In this document: positions 8,632-23,833 of the stretch, piece by piece | How the letters are laid out: the number at the start of each line of letters is the position of its first letter | Numbering within the stretch: the stretch's first letter is position 1 | IMG/VR virus record: IMGVR_UViG_3300044631_000150 | Coordinates: 1-24,783 of that record | Reading direction: 5' to 3' (one strand) | Origin: a virus | DNA: 24,783 nt | Made by a program: the position numbers and the translations under genes | The notes under the pieces: model-generated | What the model was told of the DNA's origin: nothing | The model's database searches: none | What the model saw: only the letters and a program-made list of their open reading frames with translations

Positions 8632-8782
8632 TTTTCTTACCTTTCTTAGCGGTCTTAGCCGCATCCTTGAAGTCTTTAGCCGTGGGAGCACCCTTGGCTC
8701 CAACCTTACGCATCTTCTCGCCGCTACCGGCTTCAATGCGTTTACGCTTTGCGTTGATGTTTGCGTACAGTCCAGGTTTCAT
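8621..8782 (-). CDS. 53-aa basic conserved phage protein
   Basis: MKPGLYANINAKRKRIEAGS, then GEKMRKVGAKGAPTAKDFKD and a Lys/Ala-rich end. The block GLYANI-AKRKRI-AGSGEKMRK-G-KGAPTA is a familiar small protein of aquatic podoviruses and cyanophages found in structural regions. Its function is not established; it is often noted as a putative virion component. Its ATG overlaps the terminase stop (TAATG). Its last 11 bases overlap the next mini-gene. Confidence 0.75.
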   Translation of the reverse strand: MKPGLYANINAKRKRIEAGSGEKMRKVGAKGAPTAKDFKDAAKTAKKGKKNGY

Positions 8783-10041
8783 TAGTACCCCGCTATTTTG
8801 TCAAGGATAATGTATTCGTCTTCTTCGTAGTCCTGTTGGTAGGACACGACAGCTAATTGGTCAATGTAAGACAAAGCATCCACCAGATCGTCGTGTACGC
8901 CGTTGGTGGGGAACATCATCAACTGATCCTTCAGTTCGTCCCAATCTTCGTCTTCATTAAAAGTGACACGACCGTGTTCCATGCGCCCTTGCAGCGCCCA
9001 AATAACACGATCAGTTTTCTTTTTGTTGCCGTGAGTAAGGTCTTGAATGTGTGCATAGATGTTGTTCTTTCTCATCAAGTCGTTGAGATAAGGCAATACA
9101 GCGTTCTTAAGCGCACCACGCTCAATACCAACAGCAATAGGCTCGTAGTCTCTGACAGTCTTCAGGATATTTACGGCAGTCTCTCGTATATCCCACCGAC
9201 CATGAACAACTTTGTGTACGAACCAATCACCGTCATCTGTCACCTTTACGATAGCAATTGCAGATTCATCCAGCTTTTTCTTGGCAGCACTTGCGTTCTT
9301 TGCTACATCCTCAAATCCTGCCAAGTCAATAGCCACGACATAAGAACCATACTGAGGTTCTTTTCCAGTCTTGAACCATTGTTCCTTGAAGACATCAGCA
9401 CCAGCGGTATCAAACGAAGACAAGTACTCTTGCTTGAAAGCAAAGGAGCTTAGTGTTCGCTTGGCTGCCTCAATTTCCTTTGGGTCAATCGTTTCGTTGT
9501 CTTGGGTGGTAAAGTGCCAAGACTTCCACTCTTCGTCCTCACCGGACTGTCCGAGTTGGAAGACATCGTAGAACCAGTTACGCCCAGACGGAGTGGAAAT
9601 AAACAATGCTCGACCCTTGCGATCCGACAAAGCAGCACGAAGGATTTTCTCCCACACATCCTGCTTAATGAAGGCGCACTCGTCAAGCACCAGATAAGTC
9701 AAAGACACACCACGAAGGCTGTCAGGATTGTCAGCACCACGAACAAGAATCTTACGACCATTGAGAAGCGTAATCTCAAGGTTGTTCACGTGGCTGGACT
9801 TGATGACAGGCCTACCGAGGTCATGCAACAGTTCCCAGATAATCGATCTAGCTTGACCCATCGTAGGGGCCACATACATCACGCTAGAGCCTTCAGGGCA
9901 GTTTAAAGCCTCTATGAGCAGCGTAACCGCAGACAGTCGGGATTTACCACATCGACGGCCAGCAGCCACGATCTTGAAGCGAGTATTGTCGGTGAAGACA
10001 GTCTTTTGCCAGTTCAGTAGTTGAAAGTTTAAGGCTGTCAT
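8782..10041 (-). CDS. terL: Terminase large subunit (packaging ATPase-nuclease)
   Basis: 419 aa. The N-terminal ATPase has an atypical Walker A, AAGRRCGKS (Lys33, Ser34), Walker B YLVLDE (Asp119, Glu120) and coupling motif FISTPSG (147-152). The C-terminal RNase-H-like nuclease has Asp238 in VVAIDLAG, Glu306 in VGIERG and Asp383/Asp384 in VHDDLVDALSY. All expected catalytic residues are present. The protein pumps DNA into proheads at the portal and cuts concatemers. At 419 aa it is shorter than T7 gp19 (about 586 aa). It overlaps the upstream gene by four bases (ATGA), matching a TerS-TerL pair. Confidence 0.95.
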   Translation of the reverse strand: MTALNFQLLNWQKTVFTDNTRFKIVAAGRRCGKSRLSAVTLLIEALNCPEGSSVMYVAPTMGQARSIIWELLHDLGRPVIKSSHVNNLEITLLNGRKILVRGADNPDSLRGVSLTYLVLDECAFIKQDVWEKILRAALSDRKGRALFISTPSGRNWFYDVFQLGQSGEDEEWKSWHFTTQDNETIDPKEIEAAKRTLSSFAFKQEYLSSFDTAGADVFKEQWFKTGKEPQYGSYVVAIDLAGFEDVAKNASAAKKKLDESAIAIVKVTDDGDWFVHKVVHGRWDIRETAVNILKTVRDYEPIAVGIERGALKNAVLPYLNDLMRKNNIYAHIQDLTHGNKKKTDRVIWALQGRMEHGRVTFNEDEDWDELKDQLMMFPTNGVHDDLVDALSYIDQLAVVSYQQDYEEDEYIILDKIAGY

Positions 10042-10400
10042 ACGTCAATCACTTCATCGGACGTAGACACCTTGGGATCATTAAGACCAGAGATGTTGAT
10101 GCTAATAGACGGCATTTGACCAGCTTGCTTGCTTTGATCGAAAGCAGACACGGGGACAATTCTATCGACAATCAGCTTCCAAGCAGCAGCTTGGTGTGCA
10201 TGTTCATCGTTAAGGGCAGCTTCGTATATTTTCTCTAAGACCTTAGCACTCTTAGGACTGTTCAACATCCTAAGCTTATAGTCATTGATAATGGCTGCAT
10301 CACCTGGGGGACGACCACGTTTACCTAAAGTTCGTGACTTTGTTTCGACAAGGTCAGATTTAGACGGTCTTCCGATCTTATTGCCTGTTGGCTTGGTCAT
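10038..10400 (-). CDS. terS: Putative terminase small subunit (DNA recognition)
   Basis: 120 aa, first gene of the minus-strand block. It has two GRP/RGRPPG AT-hook-like elements (KIGRPSK, GKRGRPPGD) near the N-terminus. A helical region follows (INDYKLRMLNSPKSAKVLEK) with AAWKLIVDRIVPVSAF, a pattern seen in small terminase or packaging-initiation proteins encoded just before terL. The ATGA overlap with terL supports a paired product. No lone domain proves the function, so the call depends largely on position. AAGGA lies about nine bases before the ATG. Confidence 0.7.
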   Translation of the reverse strand: MTKPTGNKIGRPSKSDLVETKSRTLGKRGRPPGDAAIINDYKLRMLNSPKSAKVLEKIYEAALNDEHAHQAAAWKLIVDRIVPVSAFDQSKQAGQMPSISINISGLNDPKVSTSDEVIDV

Positions 10401-10432
10401 GTGTCTTTATCCTTTAAGGAGACAATCCTACA

Positions 10433-10513
10433 TATAAGTACTTATAAAGTAAACTTATAATAATAATTATTAATAGTTAATATTATAAGTACTTATAATG
10501 TATTACTTATAAT
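10433..10513. repeat. AT-rich palindrome cluster built on ATTATAAGT / ACTTATAAT
   Basis: TATAAGTACTTATA is a perfect 14-bp palindrome at 10433-10446. ATTATAAGTACTTATAAT is a perfect 18-bp palindrome at 10482-10499. Further ACTTATAAT half-sites lie at 10453-10461 and 10505-10513. ACTTATAATA (10453-10462) and TATTATAAGT (10481-10490) form a wider inverted repeat. The same half-sites recur at 13205-13238. It lies in the 5' leader of the packaging operon. Binding sites for a regulator, or a replication origin, are possible. Confidence 0.8.
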
Positions 10514-10522
10514 ATTTAACAT

Positions 10523-10549
10523 CTATGTCTTCTATGGCTTCTATGTCTA
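10523..10549. repeat. Three 9-bp tandem repeats in the late leader
   Basis: CTATGTCTT, CTATGGCTT and CTATGTCTA follow one another without a gap. They lie about 25-50 bases downstream of the predicted start of the minus-strand transcript, between its promoter and the palindromes. Their role is unknown. Confidence 0.65.
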
Positions 10550-10580
10550 TAGAGTCCTTCTTTGCTTACATCATAGTACT

Positions 10581-10609
10581 ATTATAACACAACTTTGTCT
10601 GTTTGTCAA
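10581..10609 (-). promoter_or_regulatory. Consensus sigma70 promoter for the packaging/structural block
   Basis: On the minus strand TTGACA (10609-10604), a 17-base spacer and TATAAT (10586-10581) match the housekeeping consensus perfectly. The predicted start near 10574 leaves a leader of about 174 bases before the small terminase gene. This leader contains the 9-bp repeats and AT-rich palindromes, which could modulate it. Flanking sequence resembles the promoter at 6243-6271 (ACTTGACAAA upstream; ACTAT downstream of the -10). Confidence 0.88.
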
Positions 10610-10699
10610 GTCTTTTCTTGTCTTTTTGTTAAAATTCTTTCATTTGCTCCCTCTAACGTCTCCCTTCCAGGGTGTCCGTGTTCCGTCATCGTCTCTTTT

Positions 10700-10764
10700 G
10701 ACTCTGTCCCCATTTTTCTAACGCTGACAATCACTTACAGTGTCTTACATGACGACTCTGTCCC
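10700..10764. repeat. Paired 11-bp direct repeat GACTCTGTCCC
   Basis: Identical copies sit at 10700-10710 and 10754-10764, 54 bp apart (close to five helical turns). They lie roughly 100-165 bp upstream of the sigma54-type element at 10863, a normal distance for activator sites, and 90-180 bp upstream of the minus-strand promoter. They may be regulator sites; nothing identifies the protein. Confidence 0.55.
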
Positions 10765-10862
10765 TTATTTCTTTAGGTCTATTTTTACTCTTTTGTGAAC
10801 GCTAGAGGCTCCACCAAAATAAACTCATAGAGCCTGACCCCTCCCCCGGTACCTTCATAGGC

Positions 10863-10878
10863 TGGCACGGATCTTGCA
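10863..10878 (+). promoter_or_regulatory. Sigma54 (RpoN) -24/-12 promoter element for the early block
   Basis: CTGGCACGGATCTTGCAT contains TGGCACG (10863-10869), four bases, and TTGCA (10874-10878). This matches the sigma54 consensus TGGCACG-N4-TTGCW at every specified base, with GG and GC exactly 12 bp apart. Transcription would start about 12 bases past the GC, near 10889, giving a leader of about 280 bases before the first early gene. It points at the plus-strand genes, for which I find no good sigma70 promoter in this region. Sigma54 polymerase needs an ATP-driven activator, so nearby repeats may be its sites. Confidence 0.65.
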
Positions 10879-10885
10879 TGGTCTT

Positions 10886-10915
10886 GTCAGCGTACTGATC
10901 GTCAGTGTACTGATG
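10886..10915. repeat. 15-bp tandem direct repeat at the predicted early start site
   Basis: GTCAGCGTACTGATC (10886-10900) is followed directly by GTCAGTGTACTGATG (10901-10915), 13 of 15 identical. The pair spans the start site predicted for the sigma54-type promoter, a good place for a repressor, or for recognition of the leader RNA. Confidence 0.6.
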
Positions 10916-10998
10916 AAGTCTATTGAGAATGCGTTTGCATTAGCAGGACGTGAGAGGCGATGGAGGTGCCTCCAGCGTCCTATAGCGTCACCATCAGC

Positions 10999-11036
10999 GC
11001 ACCAATCAAGTGCATTTCTGTGCACCAATCTTGTGC
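10999..11036. promoter_or_regulatory. Two GCAC-N7-GTGC dyads resembling NtrC enhancer sites
   Basis: GCACCAATCAAGTGC (10999-11013) and GCACCAATCTTGTGC (11022-11036) are 23 bp apart and lie in a longer repeat that shares the flanking ATT. Enteric NtrC sites upstream of glnA have the same GCAC-N7-GTGC form and a very similar left half (GCACCAA). Here they lie about 110-150 bp downstream of the predicted start at 10889, so if they act as enhancers it is from inside the transcribed leader. As RNA each could also make a small 4-5 bp hairpin. Confidence 0.5.
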
Positions 11037-11045
11037 ATTATTATC

Positions 11046-11132
11046 AGGGTAAACCCTATAAGGGTAATCTCTATGCCAATAGAATCAAGCACTTACAAGA
11101 ACTGGCACGATTCTATTATGCATATAGGGTAA
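11046..11132 (+). promoter_or_regulatory. Foldable leader before the first early gene with competing AGGGT/ACCCT pairings
   Basis: ACCCTATA (11053-11060) is fully complementary to TATAGGGT (11123-11130). Nested inside, AATAGAATC (11078-11086) is complementary to GATTCTATT (11109-11117). The same ACCCT can instead pair with AGGGT at 11061-11065 to make a tight local hairpin. AGGGTAA occurs three times (11046, 11061, 11126). Mutually exclusive folds 40 bases before a ribosome site suggest a regulatory leader. No known riboswitch class is recognised. Confidence 0.45.
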
Positions 11133-11170
11133 GAGCACACGATTTTGTGAGCACTTAACAGGAGCGCAAG

Positions 11171-11654: not shown

Positions 11655-12302
11655 ATGGCAATCCGTATCAGTGTGACATCCAAACTTGACGGAATTCGTT
11701 CGTGGTCACTGCAAGCCCTGGACACTTGCCCTGGTTCCCTTGCGTCTCCTGGCGTACTAGTTGACGCATGCAAGGGATGCTACGCTACCACGGGCAACTA
11801 CAGGTACCCGAATGTCAAAGCGCCACGGATTGAGAATCGGGAAGATTGGCAGCGCCTAGAGTGGGTTGACGATATGGTCAAGGCCCTAGACTCTGACAGA
11901 TATTTCCGATGGTTTGATTCGGGTGACATGTACACGCTAGGGCTTGCCGAAAAGATTCTAGAGGTTATGAAGCGCACGCCGTGGGTCAAGCATTGGCTAC
12001 CGACTCGCATGCATAAATTCCCTAAATTTCAAATGGTTTTGTCTGAGATGCAAGCGCTGCCCAATGTCATGGTTCGATTTTCTTCGGACAGTGTCACGGG
12101 TGATTTCATCCCTGGCTTGCATGGTTCCGTTATCGTGCCCGATGCTAACACCCTGCCTGATGGTGTTACACTCTGTCGCGCCTATGAGAATGCTGGCAAG
12201 TGTTCCGGCTGTCGCGCATGCTATGATAAGACAGTGGACGTTATCGCGTACCCTGCCCACGGTGTCAAAATGGCCAAAGTCATTAAGATTGTGAAAGGTT
12301 AA
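11655..12302 (+). CDS. gp88-like cysteine-rich protein, putative Fe-S protein
   Basis: 215 aa. It has an N-terminal cysteine set, Cys25, Cys39 and Cys42 (DTCPGS...VDACKGCYA). Blocks FRWFDSGDMY (84-93), VKHWLPTRM (111-119) and VMVRFSSDSV (138-147) follow. A C-terminal cluster, CRAYENAGKCSGCRACY (Cys174, 183, 186, 189), ends the conserved part. This order matches the phage gp88 family first named in mycobacteriophages and recalls the radical-SAM-like Gp37/Gp68 proteins. Seven conserved cysteines suggest one or two iron-sulfur or zinc centres. No substrate is known. AGAGGA precedes the ATG, after a 57-base gap from the previous gene. It is the largest gene of the early cluster. Confidence 0.75.
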   Translation: MAIRISVTSKLDGIRSWSLQALDTCPGSLASPGVLVDACKGCYATTGNYRYPNVKAPRIENREDWQRLEWVDDMVKALDSDRYFRWFDSGDMYTLGLAEKILEVMKRTPWVKHWLPTRMHKFPKFQMVLSEMQALPNVMVRFSSDSVTGDFIPGLHGSVIVPDANTLPDGVTLCRAYENAGKCSGCRACYDKTVDVIAYPAHGVKMAKVIKIVKG

Positions 12303-14040: not shown

Positions 14041-14185
14041 AATGCTCATCAAGGCACGCAAGCTGTGGAATAACCCTGACGCCAGCGTGGAATTAAACCG
14101 TGCAAACATGCGAAAATGGGTGAAATCTGTTAGAATGTTGGGTTCTAATTGGCTTTTGGCTGTTCCTGTGGAGAAGAAATCTTGA
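14030..14185 (+). CDS. 51-aa basic early protein, unknown
   Basis: MNIKMLIKARKLWNNPDASV, then ELNRANMRKWVKSVRMLGSN and WLLAVPVEKKS. Strongly basic with regular Trp. It starts 11 bases inside the previous gene after a GAGG site, and its TGA overlaps the TTG start of the primase-helicase. It is coupled to replication gene translation by position. Function unknown. Confidence 0.6.
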   Translation: MNIKMLIKARKLWNNPDASVELNRANMRKWVKSVRMLGSNWLLAVPVEKKS

Positions 14186-15765
14186 CAGAATCTAAGTTCG
14201 TGAAGCATGTTGCCTGTGAGTCCTGCGGCAGTTCAGACGCGAATGCTCTGTACGATGACGGGCACACTCACTGCTTCGCTTGTAACACTACGAGGGTAAG
14301 CGTGGAAGACACTCAACAAGCACCGAAACCGCCCAAGGCTAAGAGCCTGAGCGTTAGCGGCACTGTCAGGGGCATCCCTGAGCGTGGTATCAATCGACAA
14401 ACCTGTGAAAAGTTCGGAGTCCTGCAAGATGATTCAAACCATTATTACCCGTATCTTGACAATGATTCTGCCATCGTCGCTTACAAGGTCAGGAATGTAG
14501 AAGAGAAGAAGTTCTCCATCCGTGGAGACTTCCAGCAGGCTAAGTTGTTTGGTCAAAACCTGTTCCATCAAGGGGGTAAGTATGTTACTTTGGTCGAAGG
14601 CGAACTGGATGCCCTTGCTGCTTACCAACTTACCGGGAGTCAGTGGCCTGTTGTGTCTATCCGTAACGGTGCTAACGCAGCCCTGAAGGACTGTAAGACA
14701 CAGTTTGAGTGGCTGGACAGTTTCGAGAACATTGTAATCTGCTTTGATGCTGATGAGCCTGGACGCAAGGCAGCCAAAGAAGTGGCTGAGTTGTTTGGGC
14801 CTAAAGCGAAGATCGTAAAACATCTGTCGGGGTTCAAAGATGCTTGTGACTACCTCATTGCTGGCGCGACTAAGGAATTTGTTTCAGAGTGGTGGAAAGC
14901 AGAAGTCTATGTACCGGACGGTATCGTTAACTCGGCTGATTTGTGGGACTCTGTTAGCACTCCCGAGCAGCCTGCTAAGGCGCATTACCCGTGGAAAGGA
15001 CTGAACAAGCTGCTGTATGGCATCCGTGACGCTGAACTGATTACCGTCACAGCCGGGTCAGGCTTGGGTAAGAGTCAGTTCCTGCGGGAAATCCTGTACG
15101 GTCTGCTGAAGACCACGGACTGGAAGATCGGAGCTATGTTCCTGGAAGAGTCTGTACGCAAGACAGCACGAAGCATCATGTCAGTACACGCTAACAAGAT
15201 GCTGCACTTGCCAGATACTCCAGTGACCGGCGAAGAACTGAAGGATGCCTTCGATGCGACTCTGGGAACTGGTAGGGTGTTCCTGTTCGACCACTTCGGA
15301 TCGCTGGAGATTGAGAATGTGCTCAACCGTATCCGGTATATGGCCAAGGCTTTGGACTGTAAGGTTGTGTTCCTGGATCACATCAGTATCGTGGTGTCAG
15401 GGCAGGACTTAGGAGACGAGCGTAAGGCCATTGACAACCTGATGACTAAGCTACGGACACTGGTACAGGAACTTGGGATTACGCTATTCTGTGTGTCTCA
15501 CCTTCGCAGGCCCACGGGCAATGCAGGACACGAGGATGGACAGGCAGTGTCGTTGTCTCAGTTACGGGGATCAGGGGCCATCGCTCAGTTGTCGGATGCA
15601 GTGATTACACTGGAGCGCAACAGCATGGCAGAGGATCACAATGACAGGCACACGACAAAGGTTTCGGTGGCCAAGAACAGGTACAATGGCTACACCGGCC
15701 CTGCGTGTCACTTGTTGTTTGACACTTACACAGGCAGAATGCTTGAGGTTGAGGAAACATTATGA
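14182..15765 (+). CDS. Primase-helicase (T7 gp4-like)
   Basis: 527 aa from a TTG at 14182, chosen because GGAG lies eight bases ahead and it overlaps the preceding stop; a TTG at 14149 is open but has no such site. The N-terminal zinc finger has Cys12, Cys15, Cys31 and Cys34 (CESC...GHTHCFAC), as in T7 gp4A. The TOPRIM primase core has VEGELDAL (Glu139) and FDADEPG (Asp189, Asp191). The DnaB-type helicase domain has Walker A GSGLGKS (292-298), Walker B VVFLDH (Asp399) and a C-terminal GSGAIAQLSDAVI arginine-finger region. It would unwind the fork and make primers, working with the polymerase encoded next. Length is close to T7's 566. Confidence 0.93.
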   Translation: MTESKFVKHVACESCGSSDANALYDDGHTHCFACNTTRVSVEDTQQAPKPPKAKSLSVSGTVRGIPERGINRQTCEKFGVLQDDSNHYYPYLDNDSAIVAYKVRNVEEKKFSIRGDFQQAKLFGQNLFHQGGKYVTLVEGELDALAAYQLTGSQWPVVSIRNGANAALKDCKTQFEWLDSFENIVICFDADEPGRKAAKEVAELFGPKAKIVKHLSGFKDACDYLIAGATKEFVSEWWKAEVYVPDGIVNSADLWDSVSTPEQPAKAHYPWKGLNKLLYGIRDAELITVTAGSGLGKSQFLREILYGLLKTTDWKIGAMFLEESVRKTARSIMSVHANKMLHLPDTPVTGEELKDAFDATLGTGRVFLFDHFGSLEIENVLNRIRYMAKALDCKVVFLDHISIVVSGQDLGDERKAIDNLMTKLRTLVQELGITLFCVSHLRRPTGNAGHEDGQAVSLSQLRGSGAIAQLSDAVITLERNSMAEDHNDRHTTKVSVAKNRYNGYTGPACHLLFDTYTGRMLEVEETL

Positions 15766-15944
15766 TGGACATAGAATCACTCGTGGCTCGGGTGTGGGAA
15801 CTGGAGGGGAAGTATGACGAGCTACTAAGGAATCACCAGAGTCTAATCCACGAGTATGAAGAACTGAAAGCCAGATATGAAAAGGCTAGTGCTGGACATC
15901 GAAACATCGACGGATCACCGTACGATTCACTTGGTAATCACTAA
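15762..15944 (+). CDS. Short coiled-coil protein between helicase and polymerase
   Basis: 60 aa, MMDIESLVARVWELEGKYDE... with heptads through ARYEKA. The start overlaps the helicase stop (ATGA), which implies coupled translation, and the gene fills a 111-base interval that would otherwise be empty. Its last 68 bases overlap the polymerase in another frame. A similar short coiled coil recurs in phages at this spot, but I know no function. The C-terminal 22 residues are constrained by the polymerase and may matter little. Confidence 0.6.
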   Translation: MMDIESLVARVWELEGKYDELLRNHQSLIHEYEELKARYEKASAGHRNIDGSPYDSLGNH

Positions 15945-17592
15945 AGACATTGACAGTAAAGAGATAAAGACATGGAAGGAAGCCGCGACCCTCGGGGCGT
16001 ATTTAAAGGACGCTACGTTAATAATCGGCCAAAACATTCTGGCGTTCGATGCACCGATCCTAAATCGTACTTGGCAGACGAGGATTCGTTTGAGCCAATG
16101 CTACGATACTCTAATAGTGTCAAGGCTGCTCGATCCGAGTCGAGAGCAAGGACACAGCCTGGAGGCATGGGGGAAGACACTCGGGAAGGAAAAGATTGAC
16201 TACGCTACACGCTGGGAAGAACTTGCTGGACGGCAGCAGGCTTACAAGGGTGAATGCTTTGACAATCCTTTCCCTGACCTTCTGGTGGAATACTGTACGG
16301 CAGACGTAGAAGTCACTGAGCTGCTGTACCGTAGGCTGACAGAGGAAGTCACCCGCAAGGAGTTCAGTCAAGAGTCTGTTGACCTTGAGCACAAGGTTGC
16401 AGCCATCATTGCGGAGCAGGAACGAAATGGTTTCAAGTTGGATCAAGAGTACGCAACCCTGCTACTTGTTGACATCAAGGGAAGAATGGCAGAAGTATAT
16501 GAGTCAATGCAGCAGCGATGGCCATCCTACGAAGTCCCAAGAGTCAGCGAAAAGACAGGAAAGCAACTCAAGCCGTTGTTGGTTACTTTCAACCCAGGAT
16601 CACGCAAGCAGATCGGAGAAAAGCTGATTGAGCTTGGGTGGAAGCCAGAGAAGTTCACCGAGACAGGACAGCCGATGGTTGACGAATCTATCCTGTCGAA
16701 GATCGAACTTCCAGAGGCTAAACTGATTGCTGAGTACCTGATGCTACAGAAACGTGTGGCTCAAATTGAGTCTTGGATGGAGGCTGTAGGCTCTGACGGC
16801 AGGGTGCATGGTAGGGTTATCACCAACGGCGCTGTAACAGGCCGGATGACACATCAAAGCCCTAACATGGCACAGATTCCCAACGCAGGGTCTGTCTATG
16901 GGCCTGAGTGCCGTCAGTGCTGGACTGTGGAGACTGGGAATGTCTTGGTTGGCTGTGACGCATCAGGGCTAGAGCTTCGGATGTTGGCACACTACATGAA
17001 GGATGACGATTATGTCAAGACGGTTGTGGAAGGGTCTTCCAAGGACGGAACTGATGTCCACACGAAGAATCAAAAAGCAGCAGGACTACAGACACGGGAT
17101 CAAGCAAAGACGTTCATCTACGCTTTCCTCTACGGGGCAGGGCCATCGAAGATTGGTTCTATCGTTGGTGGGTCGGCAAAGGACGGTGAAAGACTTACGA
17201 GTTCCTTCCTTAATGCGACTCCCGCACTCAAGGCTCTACGAGATAAGGTATCCAAGTATGCAGGCAAGGGCTTTGTACCGGGGCTTGATGGTCGTAAGAT
17301 TTGGGTTCGCTCCGAGCATGCAGCACTTAACAGCCTTCTCCAGGGTGCCGGAGCGATTGTGATGAAGAAGGCACTGTGCTTGTTCTATGACAAGATCAAG
17401 AAGAACAAGTGGCCAGTGAAGCTAGTTGCCAATGTCCACGATGAGTTTCAGTTTGAGTGTCACGCCAGTGTTGCCGACGAAGCAGGCAAGGCTGCACGGC
17501 TGAGCATTGTGGAAGCAGGACAACATTTTAAGTTACGATGTCCATTGGACGGGGAGTACAAGATTGGCAAGAATTGGAAAGAAACCCATTGA
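15877..17592 (+). CDS. Family A DNA polymerase with 3'-5' exonuclease
   Basis: 571 aa. The exonuclease motifs are Exo I LDIETS (Asp7, Glu9), Exo II IGQNILAFDAP (Asp58) and Exo III YCTADVEVT (Asp143). The polymerase motif A is DASGLELR (Asp361), motif B is RDQAKTFIYAFLYG (Arg407, Lys411, Tyr419) and motif C is HDEF (Asp522). All are intact, so a proofreading replicase is expected. It is about 130 aa shorter than T7 gp5 (704). The stretch ahead of VTFNPGSR, where T7 carries its thioredoxin-binding insertion, is only about 25 residues. Processivity must come from something else. An in-frame gene overlap upstream makes the ATG at 15877 the best start. Confidence 0.95.
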   Translation: MKRLVLDIETSTDHRTIHLVITKDIDSKEIKTWKEAATLGAYLKDATLIIGQNILAFDAPILNRTWQTRIRLSQCYDTLIVSRLLDPSREQGHSLEAWGKTLGKEKIDYATRWEELAGRQQAYKGECFDNPFPDLLVEYCTADVEVTELLYRRLTEEVTRKEFSQESVDLEHKVAAIIAEQERNGFKLDQEYATLLLVDIKGRMAEVYESMQQRWPSYEVPRVSEKTGKQLKPLLVTFNPGSRKQIGEKLIELGWKPEKFTETGQPMVDESILSKIELPEAKLIAEYLMLQKRVAQIESWMEAVGSDGRVHGRVITNGAVTGRMTHQSPNMAQIPNAGSVYGPECRQCWTVETGNVLVGCDASGLELRMLAHYMKDDDYVKTVVEGSSKDGTDVHTKNQKAAGLQTRDQAKTFIYAFLYGAGPSKIGSIVGGSAKDGERLTSSFLNATPALKALRDKVSKYAGKGFVPGLDGRKIWVRSEHAALNSLLQGAGAIVMKKALCLFYDKIKKNKWPVKLVANVHDEFQFECHASVADEAGKAARLSIVEAGQHFKLRCPLDGEYKIGKNWKETH

Positions 17593-17774: not shown

Positions 17775-17859
17775 GCGGCTGTGGTGGAATCGGTAGACAC
17801 AGGAGACTTAAAATCTCCCGGCTTACGCTGTGTGGGTTCGAGTCCCGCCAGCCGCACCA
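17775..17859 (+). tRNA. tRNA-Leu(UAA)
   Basis: The seven-bp acceptor stem GCGGCTG/CAGCCGC is followed by discriminator A and an encoded CCA. The anticodon arm GGAGA-CTTAAAA-TCTCC places UAA at 34-36. A variable arm of four pairs (CGGC-TTAC-GCTG) marks a class II leucine tRNA. The T arm is GTGGG-TTCGAGT-CCCGC. It sits between two protein genes in the replication block and should be processed out of the polycistronic RNA. It reads UUA and, by wobble, UUG codons. It is complete and looks functional. Confidence 0.95.
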
Positions 17860-21805: not shown

Positions 21806-21938
21806 TTTGAAGGATCGTCTGAAGGCTCTGGATGAAGTAACGCTTCTGGAGCTTTTAGACCTGAAGAGCGAAGACATCGTAGATCGGTTTGAAGACCTGA
21901 TCGAAGATAAACAAGAACAACTAGAGAAGGAATTTTAA
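21786..21938 (+). CDS. 50-aa acidic helical protein, unknown
   Basis: MTLTFNDLKDRLKALDEVTL, then LELLDLKSEDIVDRFEDLIE and DKQEQLEKEF. Almost entirely helical and acidic. Sequences of the form FNDLKDRLK.LDE..LLELL.L.SEDIV.RFED recur as small phage proteins near nucleotide metabolism genes. It overlaps the DUF3310 gene by 20 bases and the reductase start by one (TAATG). Function unknown. Confidence 0.75.
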   Translation: MTLTFNDLKDRLKALDEVTLLELLDLKSEDIVDRFEDLIEDKQEQLEKEF

Positions 21939-23833
21939 TGACCCCGTACCAAACCTACATTGCCAAGTCCAGGTATTCCCGTTACCTTGACGACAAAGGC
22001 CGCCGTGAGCACTGGCCTGAGACAGTCAATCGTTACTTTGACTTCATGGAAGGACACCTGAGGAAGAAACACAACTACCTCTTGCCTACTGAGCTTCGCA
22101 AGGAACTGCAAGATGCTGTGACGAACCTTGAGGTTGTGCCGTCCATGCGTGCGATTATGACCGCAGGCGATGCCTTGGATCGTCAGAATGTGGCCGGATA
22201 CAACTGCTCGTACCTGCCCGTTGATGATCCTAAGGCATTCGATGAGGCAATGTATATCCTGCTCTGTGGTACAGGGGTAGGCTTTAGCGTAGAGGAAAAG
22301 TATGTCAATCGTCTGCCAGAAGTTCCAGATCATTTGTTTGACTCTAACACTGTGGTGGTCGTCAAGGACTCTAAGGAAGGCTGGGCAAAGGCTCTGCGAC
22401 AGATTATTGCCCTCCTGTATGCCGGAGAAGTACCTAAGTGGGATGTATCCGCCGTACGTCCTGCTGGGGCACGCCTTAAGACCTTTGGTGGTCGAGCAAG
22501 TGGCCCGGAACCGTTGGTGGAGTTGTTCCGCTACACTGTCGCTAAATTCAAGGCAGCCGCTGGTCGTAAACTTAACTCGCTGGAATGCCATGATATTCTG
22601 TGCAAGATCGGGGAAGTCGTTGTGGTTGGAGGGGTACGCCGGTCTGCGATGATTAGTCTGTCTGACCTGAGCGATGACCGAATGGCTCACGCTAAGGCAG
22701 GAAACTGGTGGGAAGGAAACGCACAGCGTGCATTGGCTAACAACTCGGCAGTCTACACGACCAAGCCCTCTGTTGGTCAGTTCATGCGCGAATGGTCTGC
22801 TATTTATGAATCACACTCTGGTGAACGAGGTATCTTCAATCGGTATGCTAGTCAAGCTCAGGCGGCTCGTAATGGCCGTCGCGACCCAAATCAGGAATGG
22901 GGAACGAATCCCTGTAGTGAAATTATTCTACGCCCTTATCAGTTCTGTAATCTTAGTTCTGTCATTGTGCGGCCTAGCGATGATTACGGTTCTCTTGAGC
23001 GTAAAGTGCGTCTTGCAACTATCCTGGGAACTTGGCAGTCAACACTTACGAACTTCCCGTATCTTCGCAAGATTTGGCAAAACAACACCGAAGAGGAACG
23101 ACTGCTAGGCGTGTCAATGACGGGTATCCTAGATAACTCGTTGCTGAACAACCCTGACGATCCTCGTCTACCTGACCTTTTGGAGAAGTTGAAAACTCAT
23201 GCTGTTCACACTAATGCTGTTATGGCTGACGCTATCGGTATCAACCGGAGTGTTGCTATCACAGCTATCAAACCTGAGGGTACAGTCTCCCAGCTCACGG
23301 GCACTGCTAGTGGTATTCATCCTCAACACGCTAAGTATTATATTCGTCGGGTTCGTTCTGATAACAAAGACCCTCTCACTGACTTCCTGAAGTCTCAAGG
23401 GTTCCCGTCAGAGCCTGACTTCTATAAGTCTGACAGCACGACAGTGTTCAGCTTCCCTGTGGCTGTGGCTGACGGTGCTGTGCTGCGTGAGGACTTGGAT
23501 GCTATCAAGCACCTGCGTCTGTGGCTGCTGTATCAGGAACACTACTGTGAGCACAAGCCTTCTGTGACCATCTCTGTCAAGGAGCAAGAGTGGCCTAAGG
23601 TTGGTGCTTGGGTGTGGGACAACTTTGACAAGATCACTGGCGTGTCTTTCCTGCCGATGGACGGAGGAACCTATCGACAGGCACCGTATGAGGAGATCGA
23701 CAGTGCGGAGTACGAACGCCTAAAGGCTGCAATGCCTGCGGGGATTGACTGGGATGCTTTCATTGAAAGGACTGACAATGTAGAAGGAGCACAGACTTTG
23801 GCCTGCACGGCTGGAGCCTGCGAACTACCGTGA
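21938..23833 (+). CDS. nrdJ: Monomeric class II (B12-dependent) ribonucleoside-triphosphate reductase
   Basis: 631 aa. NPCSEI (Asn324, Cys326, Glu328) holds the thiyl radical Cys and its Glu. Cys90 (YNCSY) and Cys337 (FCNLSS) are the redox pair, and Cys623/Cys628 near the end (LACTAGACELP) are the shuttle pair. CGTGVGFSVEE and the overall layout match Lactobacillus-type RTPR, which needs adenosylcobalamin and no NrdB subunit; no nrdB is nearby. It makes dNTPs for the phage with or without oxygen. Shorter than the bacterial enzyme (about 739 aa), as is usual in phages. GAGAAGGAATTTTA precedes the ATG. Confidence 0.93.
   Translation: MTPYQTYIAKSRYSRYLDDKGRREHWPETVNRYFDFMEGHLRKKHNYLLPTELRKELQDAVTNLEVVPSMRAIMTAGDALDRQNVAGYNCSYLPVDDPKAFDEAMYILLCGTGVGFSVEEKYVNRLPEVPDHLFDSNTVVVVKDSKEGWAKALRQIIALLYAGEVPKWDVSAVRPAGARLKTFGGRASGPEPLVELFRYTVAKFKAAAGRKLNSLECHDILCKIGEVVVVGGVRRSAMISLSDLSDDRMAHAKAGNWWEGNAQRALANNSAVYTTKPSVGQFMREWSAIYESHSGERGIFNRYASQAQAARNGRRDPNQEWGTNPCSEIILRPYQFCNLSSVIVRPSDDYGSLERKVRLATILGTWQSTLTNFPYLRKIWQNNTEEERLLGVSMTGILDNSLLNNPDDPRLPDLLEKLKTHAVHTNAVMADAIGINRSVAITAIKPEGTVSQLTGTASGIHPQHAKYYIRRVRSDNKDPLTDFLKSQGFPSEPDFYKSDSTTVFSFPVAVADGAVLREDLDAIKHLRLWLLYQEHYCEHKPSVTISVKEQEWPKVGAWVWDNFDKITGVSFLPMDGGTYRQAPYEEIDSAEYERLKAAMPAGIDWDAFIERTDNVEGAQTLACTAGACELP

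Follow-up and report, generated by a model that had tools for sequence, protein, structure and literature searches.

Promoters read by RpoN (sigma54) and activated from NtrC enhancers, such as E. coli glnAp2, carry the core TGGCAYR-N4-TTGCW with fixed spacing. Without an activator driven by ATP, a sigma54 promoter stays silent, so that a phage relying on one cedes a step of its infection to a host stress signal. The phage sites analysed here have the same core and spacing, and they resemble glnAp2-type systems in their 17-bp TGCACCAnnnTGGTGCA boxes, which lie 100-200 bp upstream and often form pairs about 30 bp apart. Unlike those systems, the phage sites belong to the control region of apparently lytic phages and stand before replication genes, and they are sometimes reversed, inverted or arrayed. 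Furthermore, their binding and activation are predicted only.

Links between phage genes and host nutrient regulators have been described elsewhere. T4-like cyanophages carry NtcA sites and promoters predicted to be driven by this host global nitrogen regulator (PMC3037559). However, NtcA is an unrelated CRP-type cyanobacterial regulator that works with other sigma factors, whereas the present phages imply RpoN and NtrC of a non-cyanobacterial host. In cyanophage S-PM2d, PhoBR-controlled genes are backed by transcriptome and binding experiments (PMC10976474). That case resembles the one proposed here in that phage genes come under a host two-component nutrient-stress system, but it concerns phosphate rather than nitrogen and does not involve sigma54, and the present evidence is comparative only. 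A phage connection to sigma54 also exists in Pectobacterium phage Q19, where it consists of a putative phage-encoded sigma54-like protein, recognized by a weak HHpred hit (PMC7693777), and not of a promoter using host sigma54. A phage promoter using RpoN or NtrC was not found in the literature searched, whose coverage left out most subscription journals.

A sigma54-type element in a phage control region

The window, by which we mean the whole stretch of DNA analysed, comprises 24,783 bases of an IMG/VR virus record and is a fragment. Its leftward genes include those for capsid, portal and terminase, and its rightward genes encode GP88-like, primase-helicase, family A DNA polymerase, exonuclease, RusA, ThyX and ribonucleotide reductase proteins. 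A non-coding control region of 770 bp (10401-11170) separates the leftward terS-like and terL genes from the rightward replication operon (Table 1). We call this operon early from its gene content alone; the timing is inferred, and there are no transcript data. Apart from the polymerase gene, a separate gene at 20722-21462 matches a DNA polymerase exonuclease subunit family. A tRNA-Leu (TAA) gene is located at 17775-17859, and some relatives (L166, L168, L175) have one too.

Table 1. Positions of genes and putative control elements in the window
Feature	Positions	Strand	Remarks
Terminase large subunit (terL)	8782..10041	-	Leftward gene
terS-like small gene, directly upstream of terL	10038..10400	-	Position only, no family match
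Perfect sigma70-type promoter, TTGACA-17-TATAAT with TG extension	10581..10609	-	Towards terminase side
Conserved TTTTGTGAACGCTAGAGGCTCCACCAAAA, left arm of distant inverted pair	10791..10819	+	Close relatives; recognisable in distant ones
Conserved ACCCCTCCCCC, just upstream of P1	10837..10847	+	Invariant across alignment of 10 close relatives
P1, sigma54-type -24/-12 element TGGCACG-GATC-TTGCA, TGGCACGGATCTTGCA	10863..10878	+	Exact match; no changes at consensus positions among relatives
TGGAGGTGCCTCCAGCGTC, inverted partner of 10791-10819	10961..10979	-	Seen in sequence and relatives
NtrC-like box 1, CGCACCAATCAAGTGCA	10998..11014		3 mismatches to TGCACCAnnnTGGTGCA
NtrC-like box 2, TGCACCAATCTTGTGCA	11021..11037		1 mismatch, best in window
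IHF consensus AATCAAGCACTTA	11083..11095	+	Only one in window
P4, TGGCACG-ATTCTATTA-TGCATATA = TGGCACGATTCTATTATGCATATA	11103..11126	+	Second conserved promoter-like element
First rightward ORF, 67 aa	11171..11374	+	SD-like AGGAG upstream
GP88-like gene	11655..12302	+	PF17338, phrog_1392
DNA primase/helicase	14149..15765	+	phrog_239
Family A DNA polymerase	15877..17592	+	Rightward operon
Ribonucleotide reductase	21938..23833	+	Rightward operon

A sequence-only reading of the window had proposed that TGGCACG-N4-TTGCA in the main control region is a sigma54 promoter. The element is present as described: TGGCACG-GATC-TTGC is exact at 10863-10877 on the plus strand and is followed by A. This element, termed P1, lies in the gap before the rightward replication operon, where it had been placed, and is the sole exact match in the whole window. 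Its GG (-24) and GC (-12) are exactly 10 bp apart within TGGCAYR-N4-TTGCW, which is the spacing required. The chance expectation of about 0.003 given in the same reading is correct for a fixed 12-mer. The degenerate consensus [CTA]TGGCAYR-N4-NTGCW yields 1.0 match per strand in 340 kb of simulated control regions, which scales to about 0.15 matches for a whole window and 0.005 for the 770-bp gap. The assertion that the operon has no obvious sigma70 promoter proved only partly right, in that a second promoter-like element, CTTACA-16-TATTAT (9/12, chance level), adjoins a consensus IHF site at 11083-11126, nearer the first gene. It thus lies between P1 and the first ORF, which are separated by about 290 nt.

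An inverted pair (10791-10819 and 10961-10979) around AGGCTCC is conserved across the whole group and brackets P1 in the window. Its left arm can be recognised in distant relatives, including those without forward sigma54 sites.

Conservation, spacing and position of the element among relatives

Ten close relatives could be aligned across P1; the window is nearly identical to three of them. All ten carry the element at the same place and in the same orientation, as CTGGCAYGGWTCTTGCATGG or near it, and the sequence around it differs in large part. Inside P1, some have T for C at the Y position and others have altered bases in the N4 spacer, and every such substitution falls at a position that is free in the sigma54 consensus. 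Conservation in close relatives had been named beforehand as a check on the promoter reading, and P1 passes it with the fixed consensus positions invariant. Extra copies, P2 and P3, occur about 95-150 bp downstream, the second in most of the 10 relatives and the third in some. The window and L088 lack P2 and P3, and another module occupies that place.

The spacing of the element is strict. Among 142 control regions, TGGCAYR-Nk-TTGCW occurs at k=4 in 35 forward and 5 reverse copies, and only once in total at eleven other spacings. A larger set of 184 de-duplicated control regions (340 kb) contains TGGCAY-N6-TGCW 59 times forward and 20 times reverse, with 0-12 matches per strand at other gaps; the count of 12 at another gap is the P4 element. 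Matches to the full pattern number 78 in these control regions (about 1.0 per strand expected) versus 5 in the remaining 994 kb of the same contigs. The corresponding densities, 0.229/kb and 0.005/kb, differ about 46-fold. Furthermore, the bases that the search left free agree with the RpoN consensus: C or T precedes TGG in 95%, and the seventh position is a purine in 100% of forward sites. Exactly one intergenic site, located in this control region, is present in 7 of 11 long genomes or fragments (counting the window).

Position relative to genes was also informative. Twenty-nine of the 59 forward sites end 36-57 nt ahead of the SD-preceded start codon of the first ORF, compared with a median of 348 nt for random positions in the same regions. 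Half of the forward copies in relatives thus stand where a promoter would be expected before a gene start; the reversed ones are at odds with such a position. The site is missing from about two thirds of the 184 control regions, and its presence switches at least 17 times along a 90-row terL tree. It has therefore been gained or lost often, with one spacing shared by many lineages.

NtrC boxes, P4 and the route of activation

NtrC boxes were called in the control regions by allowing at most two mismatches to the 17-bp consensus taken from PMC8743547. The 184 regions contain 37 boxes versus 1.2 in simulated sequence (about 31-fold), and the rest of the contigs contain 5. The arrangement TGCAC-N7-GTGCA occurs 17 times in the control regions, and other gaps 0-3 times. 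When measured from box centre to -12, 28 of 33 distances fall from -117 to -208, with clusters near -122, -151/-157 and -187. To judge from sequence, these distances and this spacing are as expected of enhancers in a subset of the relatives. A box is present in 25 of 63 regions with the site versus 4 of 121 without it (Fisher 4e-10, uncorrected for relatedness). A tree-based independent-pairs test of site against box had too few pairs to reach significance.

Viral contigs were also scanned using only TGGTGCA-N90-120-TGGCAYG-N4-TTGCW, which combines a half-box, a gap and the -24/-12 element and includes no protein information. The scan returned at least 80 loci. Among the matches listed, 28 loci encode relatives of the window's proteins, and full boxes with at most two mismatches are present in 15 of these 28 versus 7 of the 54 others; a gap of 99 recurs in at least 11 loci among these matches. 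The arrangement extends to distant relatives, as in L451, whose terL is 53% identical and which carries a perfect box, TGCACCACGATGGTGCA. Perfect NtrC boxes (TGCACCACTTTGGTGCA) also lie 109 bp before a sigma54-type site in L429 (9100-9235) and L464. These are viral contigs without a match to the window proteins searched, and they may represent another phage group or host DNA.

Overall, the proposal of a sigma54 promoter is supported by spacing, location, orientation, start-codon distance and linkage to NtrC boxes, in the absence of transcript data. The accompanying guess of a nitrogen activator fares differently in the two settings: upstream NtrC boxes favour it in relatives, and the layout at P1 of the window does not. 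There, the upstream arrangement is absent; the two NtrC-like boxes lie about 130-150 bp downstream of P1, and they precede the IHF site and P4. NtrC enhancers can act at a distance and from downstream, and control of P1 by NtrC is therefore possible, but the case for it is weaker than in those relatives whose boxes lie upstream. The activation route of the window's P1 copy remains unsettled.

P4 shares the sigma54-like -24 sequence TGGCACG, yet it has four extra bases before TGC. It was rejected as a sigma54 promoter because its GG-to-GC spacing is 14 rather than 10, and this mixture of features leaves its sigma class unclassifiable. P4 recurs in many relatives together with an IHF consensus at a fixed offset of -33 (or -46, inverted), and an NtrC-like box lies at exactly -87 of P4 in the window, L005 and L088. 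The rightward operon of the window phage may have two promoters, P1 and P4. The P4 form, TGGCAYG-WTTCTNNYA-TG(C/A)TATA, is found in the window, L005, L018, L088, L097, L106, L113, L115, L124 and L126. An IHF site placed between NtrC box and sigma54 site was considered as a general pattern, and the idea was dropped since only a few such cases were found.

Some copies of the site have other arrangements. It is reversed in L018, L044, L047, L063, L094 and others, several times between DnaA boxes, and most reversed sites have no gene start within 500 nt. In L044, L047, L063 and L094, the reversed sigma54-type site lies among DnaA boxes (TTATCCACA) in what is probably a replication origin. Across control regions there are 149 DnaA boxes versus 9 elsewhere, with none in the window's own control region. 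In L474 (3608-3945), six forward and two reverse sigma54-type sites precede the rightward genes, mostly 34-37 bp apart, with distances between forward sites of 34-76 bp. An overlapping inverted pair of such sites (TGGCATGATTCTTGCATAGCAAAGACTGTGCCA), 18 bp apart with the -12 ends facing, is present in L415, L434, L461, L465 and L478. Reversed sites, inverted pairs and arrays are not explained by single promoters. A further role of the element in a replication origin is therefore possible, as is its recognition by an unknown protein.

These arrangements leave room for readings other than a promoter. The element could be recognised by some phage or host protein other than RpoN, as an iteron or operator in an origin, its likeness to sigma54 sites being fortuitous. 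Tandem arrays of about 35 bp in L474, inverted pairs and DnaA-embedded copies do resemble origin or operator architecture, and DnaA boxes are concentrated in the same regions. However, the variable and fixed positions match the RpoN consensus in detail, forward copies are at promoter distance from start codons and NtrC boxes are at enhancer distance, and we regard this explanation as unlikely. It also seems improbable that the sites bind RpoN holoenzyme chiefly for origin transcription that primes replication, or as a decoy for host polymerase. Such a role would suit the arrays, the inverted pairs, the nearby DnaA boxes, the remoteness of reversed copies from any gene start they could serve and the separation of P1 from the first ORF in the window. 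It would not account for the half of the forward copies that lie within 36-57 nt of the first start codon, nor for most forward copies reading into the replication operon.

A further alternative concerns the window alone, where the rightward operon may be driven mainly by P4, assisted by IHF and of uncertain sigma class, with P1 auxiliary or vestigial. P4 is nearer the first ORF, it recurs with the IHF consensus at a fixed offset and with the box at -87 in three genomes, and the window and L088 are without P2 and P3. Nevertheless, P1 is conserved in the same genomes, the P4 hexamers are no better than chance and the TGGCACG-to-TGC spacing is unfit for sigma54. We therefore treat P4 as the main promoter only as a tentative possibility that deserves some weight. 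That P1 is a chance match can be dismissed almost entirely: a short motif can arise by chance in one window, but the gap specificity, the enrichment in control regions and the conservation across relatives contradict it.

Host machinery and a possible link to nitrogen

A T7-type single-subunit RNA polymerase (PF00940) was found neither in the window fragment nor in the related records searched, although the T7 positive control was detected. Likewise, the sigma54 activator domain (PF00158) gave no match over the cut-off in 30 records, and the controls were detected. With neither a phage-encoded sigma54 activator nor a T7-type polymerase found in the relatives searched, the host polymerase, RpoN and activator should act.

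The identity of this host is uncertain. The window's terL protein alone had no match in GTDB genomes. The contigs matched by a terL alignment belong to two MAGs, one beta-proteobacterial (68%) and one from Sphingobacteriales (54%), and both bins encode RpoN. These matches are too weak to name a host, and host rpoN and ntrC have not been demonstrated. The nearest capsid proteins, those of Pf-WMP3 and A-4L, suggested a cyanobacterial host, which is unlikely because cyanobacteria are not known to encode RpoN.

The reading that we favour, and consider probable, is that P1 is a sigma54 (RpoN) -24/-12 promoter that uses the host regulatory code, such that the rightward operon would be transcribed best under nitrogen shortage. 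Specifically, host RNA polymerase with RpoN would bind P1 and form a closed complex. This would then be melted by a host AAA+ activator, for which phosphorylated NtrC, bound at its boxes and looping the DNA, is the likeliest candidate. Transcription of the operon (primase-helicase, DNA polymerase, exonuclease, RusA, ThyX and RNR) would consequently be strongest in a nitrogen-short host. In the window, P1 would be the distal promoter, and NtrC would act on it from the downstream boxes, or on P4. RpoN binding, NtrC as the activator, the nitrogen response and the early timing are inferences made without transcript, binding or mutant data. What comparison of genomes does show is that the site exists and is conserved, that its spacing is strict, that it is confined to the control region, that in many relatives it has a promoter-like position before the first gene, and that in a subset NtrC boxes lie at enhancer distance.

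A family of uncultured aquatic phages carries host-type sigma54 sites before its replication genes, often with NtrC boxes at a suitable distance, and to judge from sequence alone its gene expression may be tied to host nitrogen status. A broader proposal has evenly balanced prospects in our estimate. It holds that a large lytic phage family places its replication operon under the host RpoN/NtrC circuit with enhancer, IHF and tandem -24/-12 elements, and that infection proceeds, or is faster, under nitrogen starvation. If this is true, the tandem and inverted arrays in part of the family would represent a layout of sigma54 sites that bacteria are not known to have. If the link is confirmed, it would be a proteobacterial-type counterpart of the cyanophage NtcA and PhoB links, with a different sigma factor and activator. 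Nitrogen status would then set infection kinetics in a widespread aquatic phage group, which would bear on how nutrient limitation shapes virus production.
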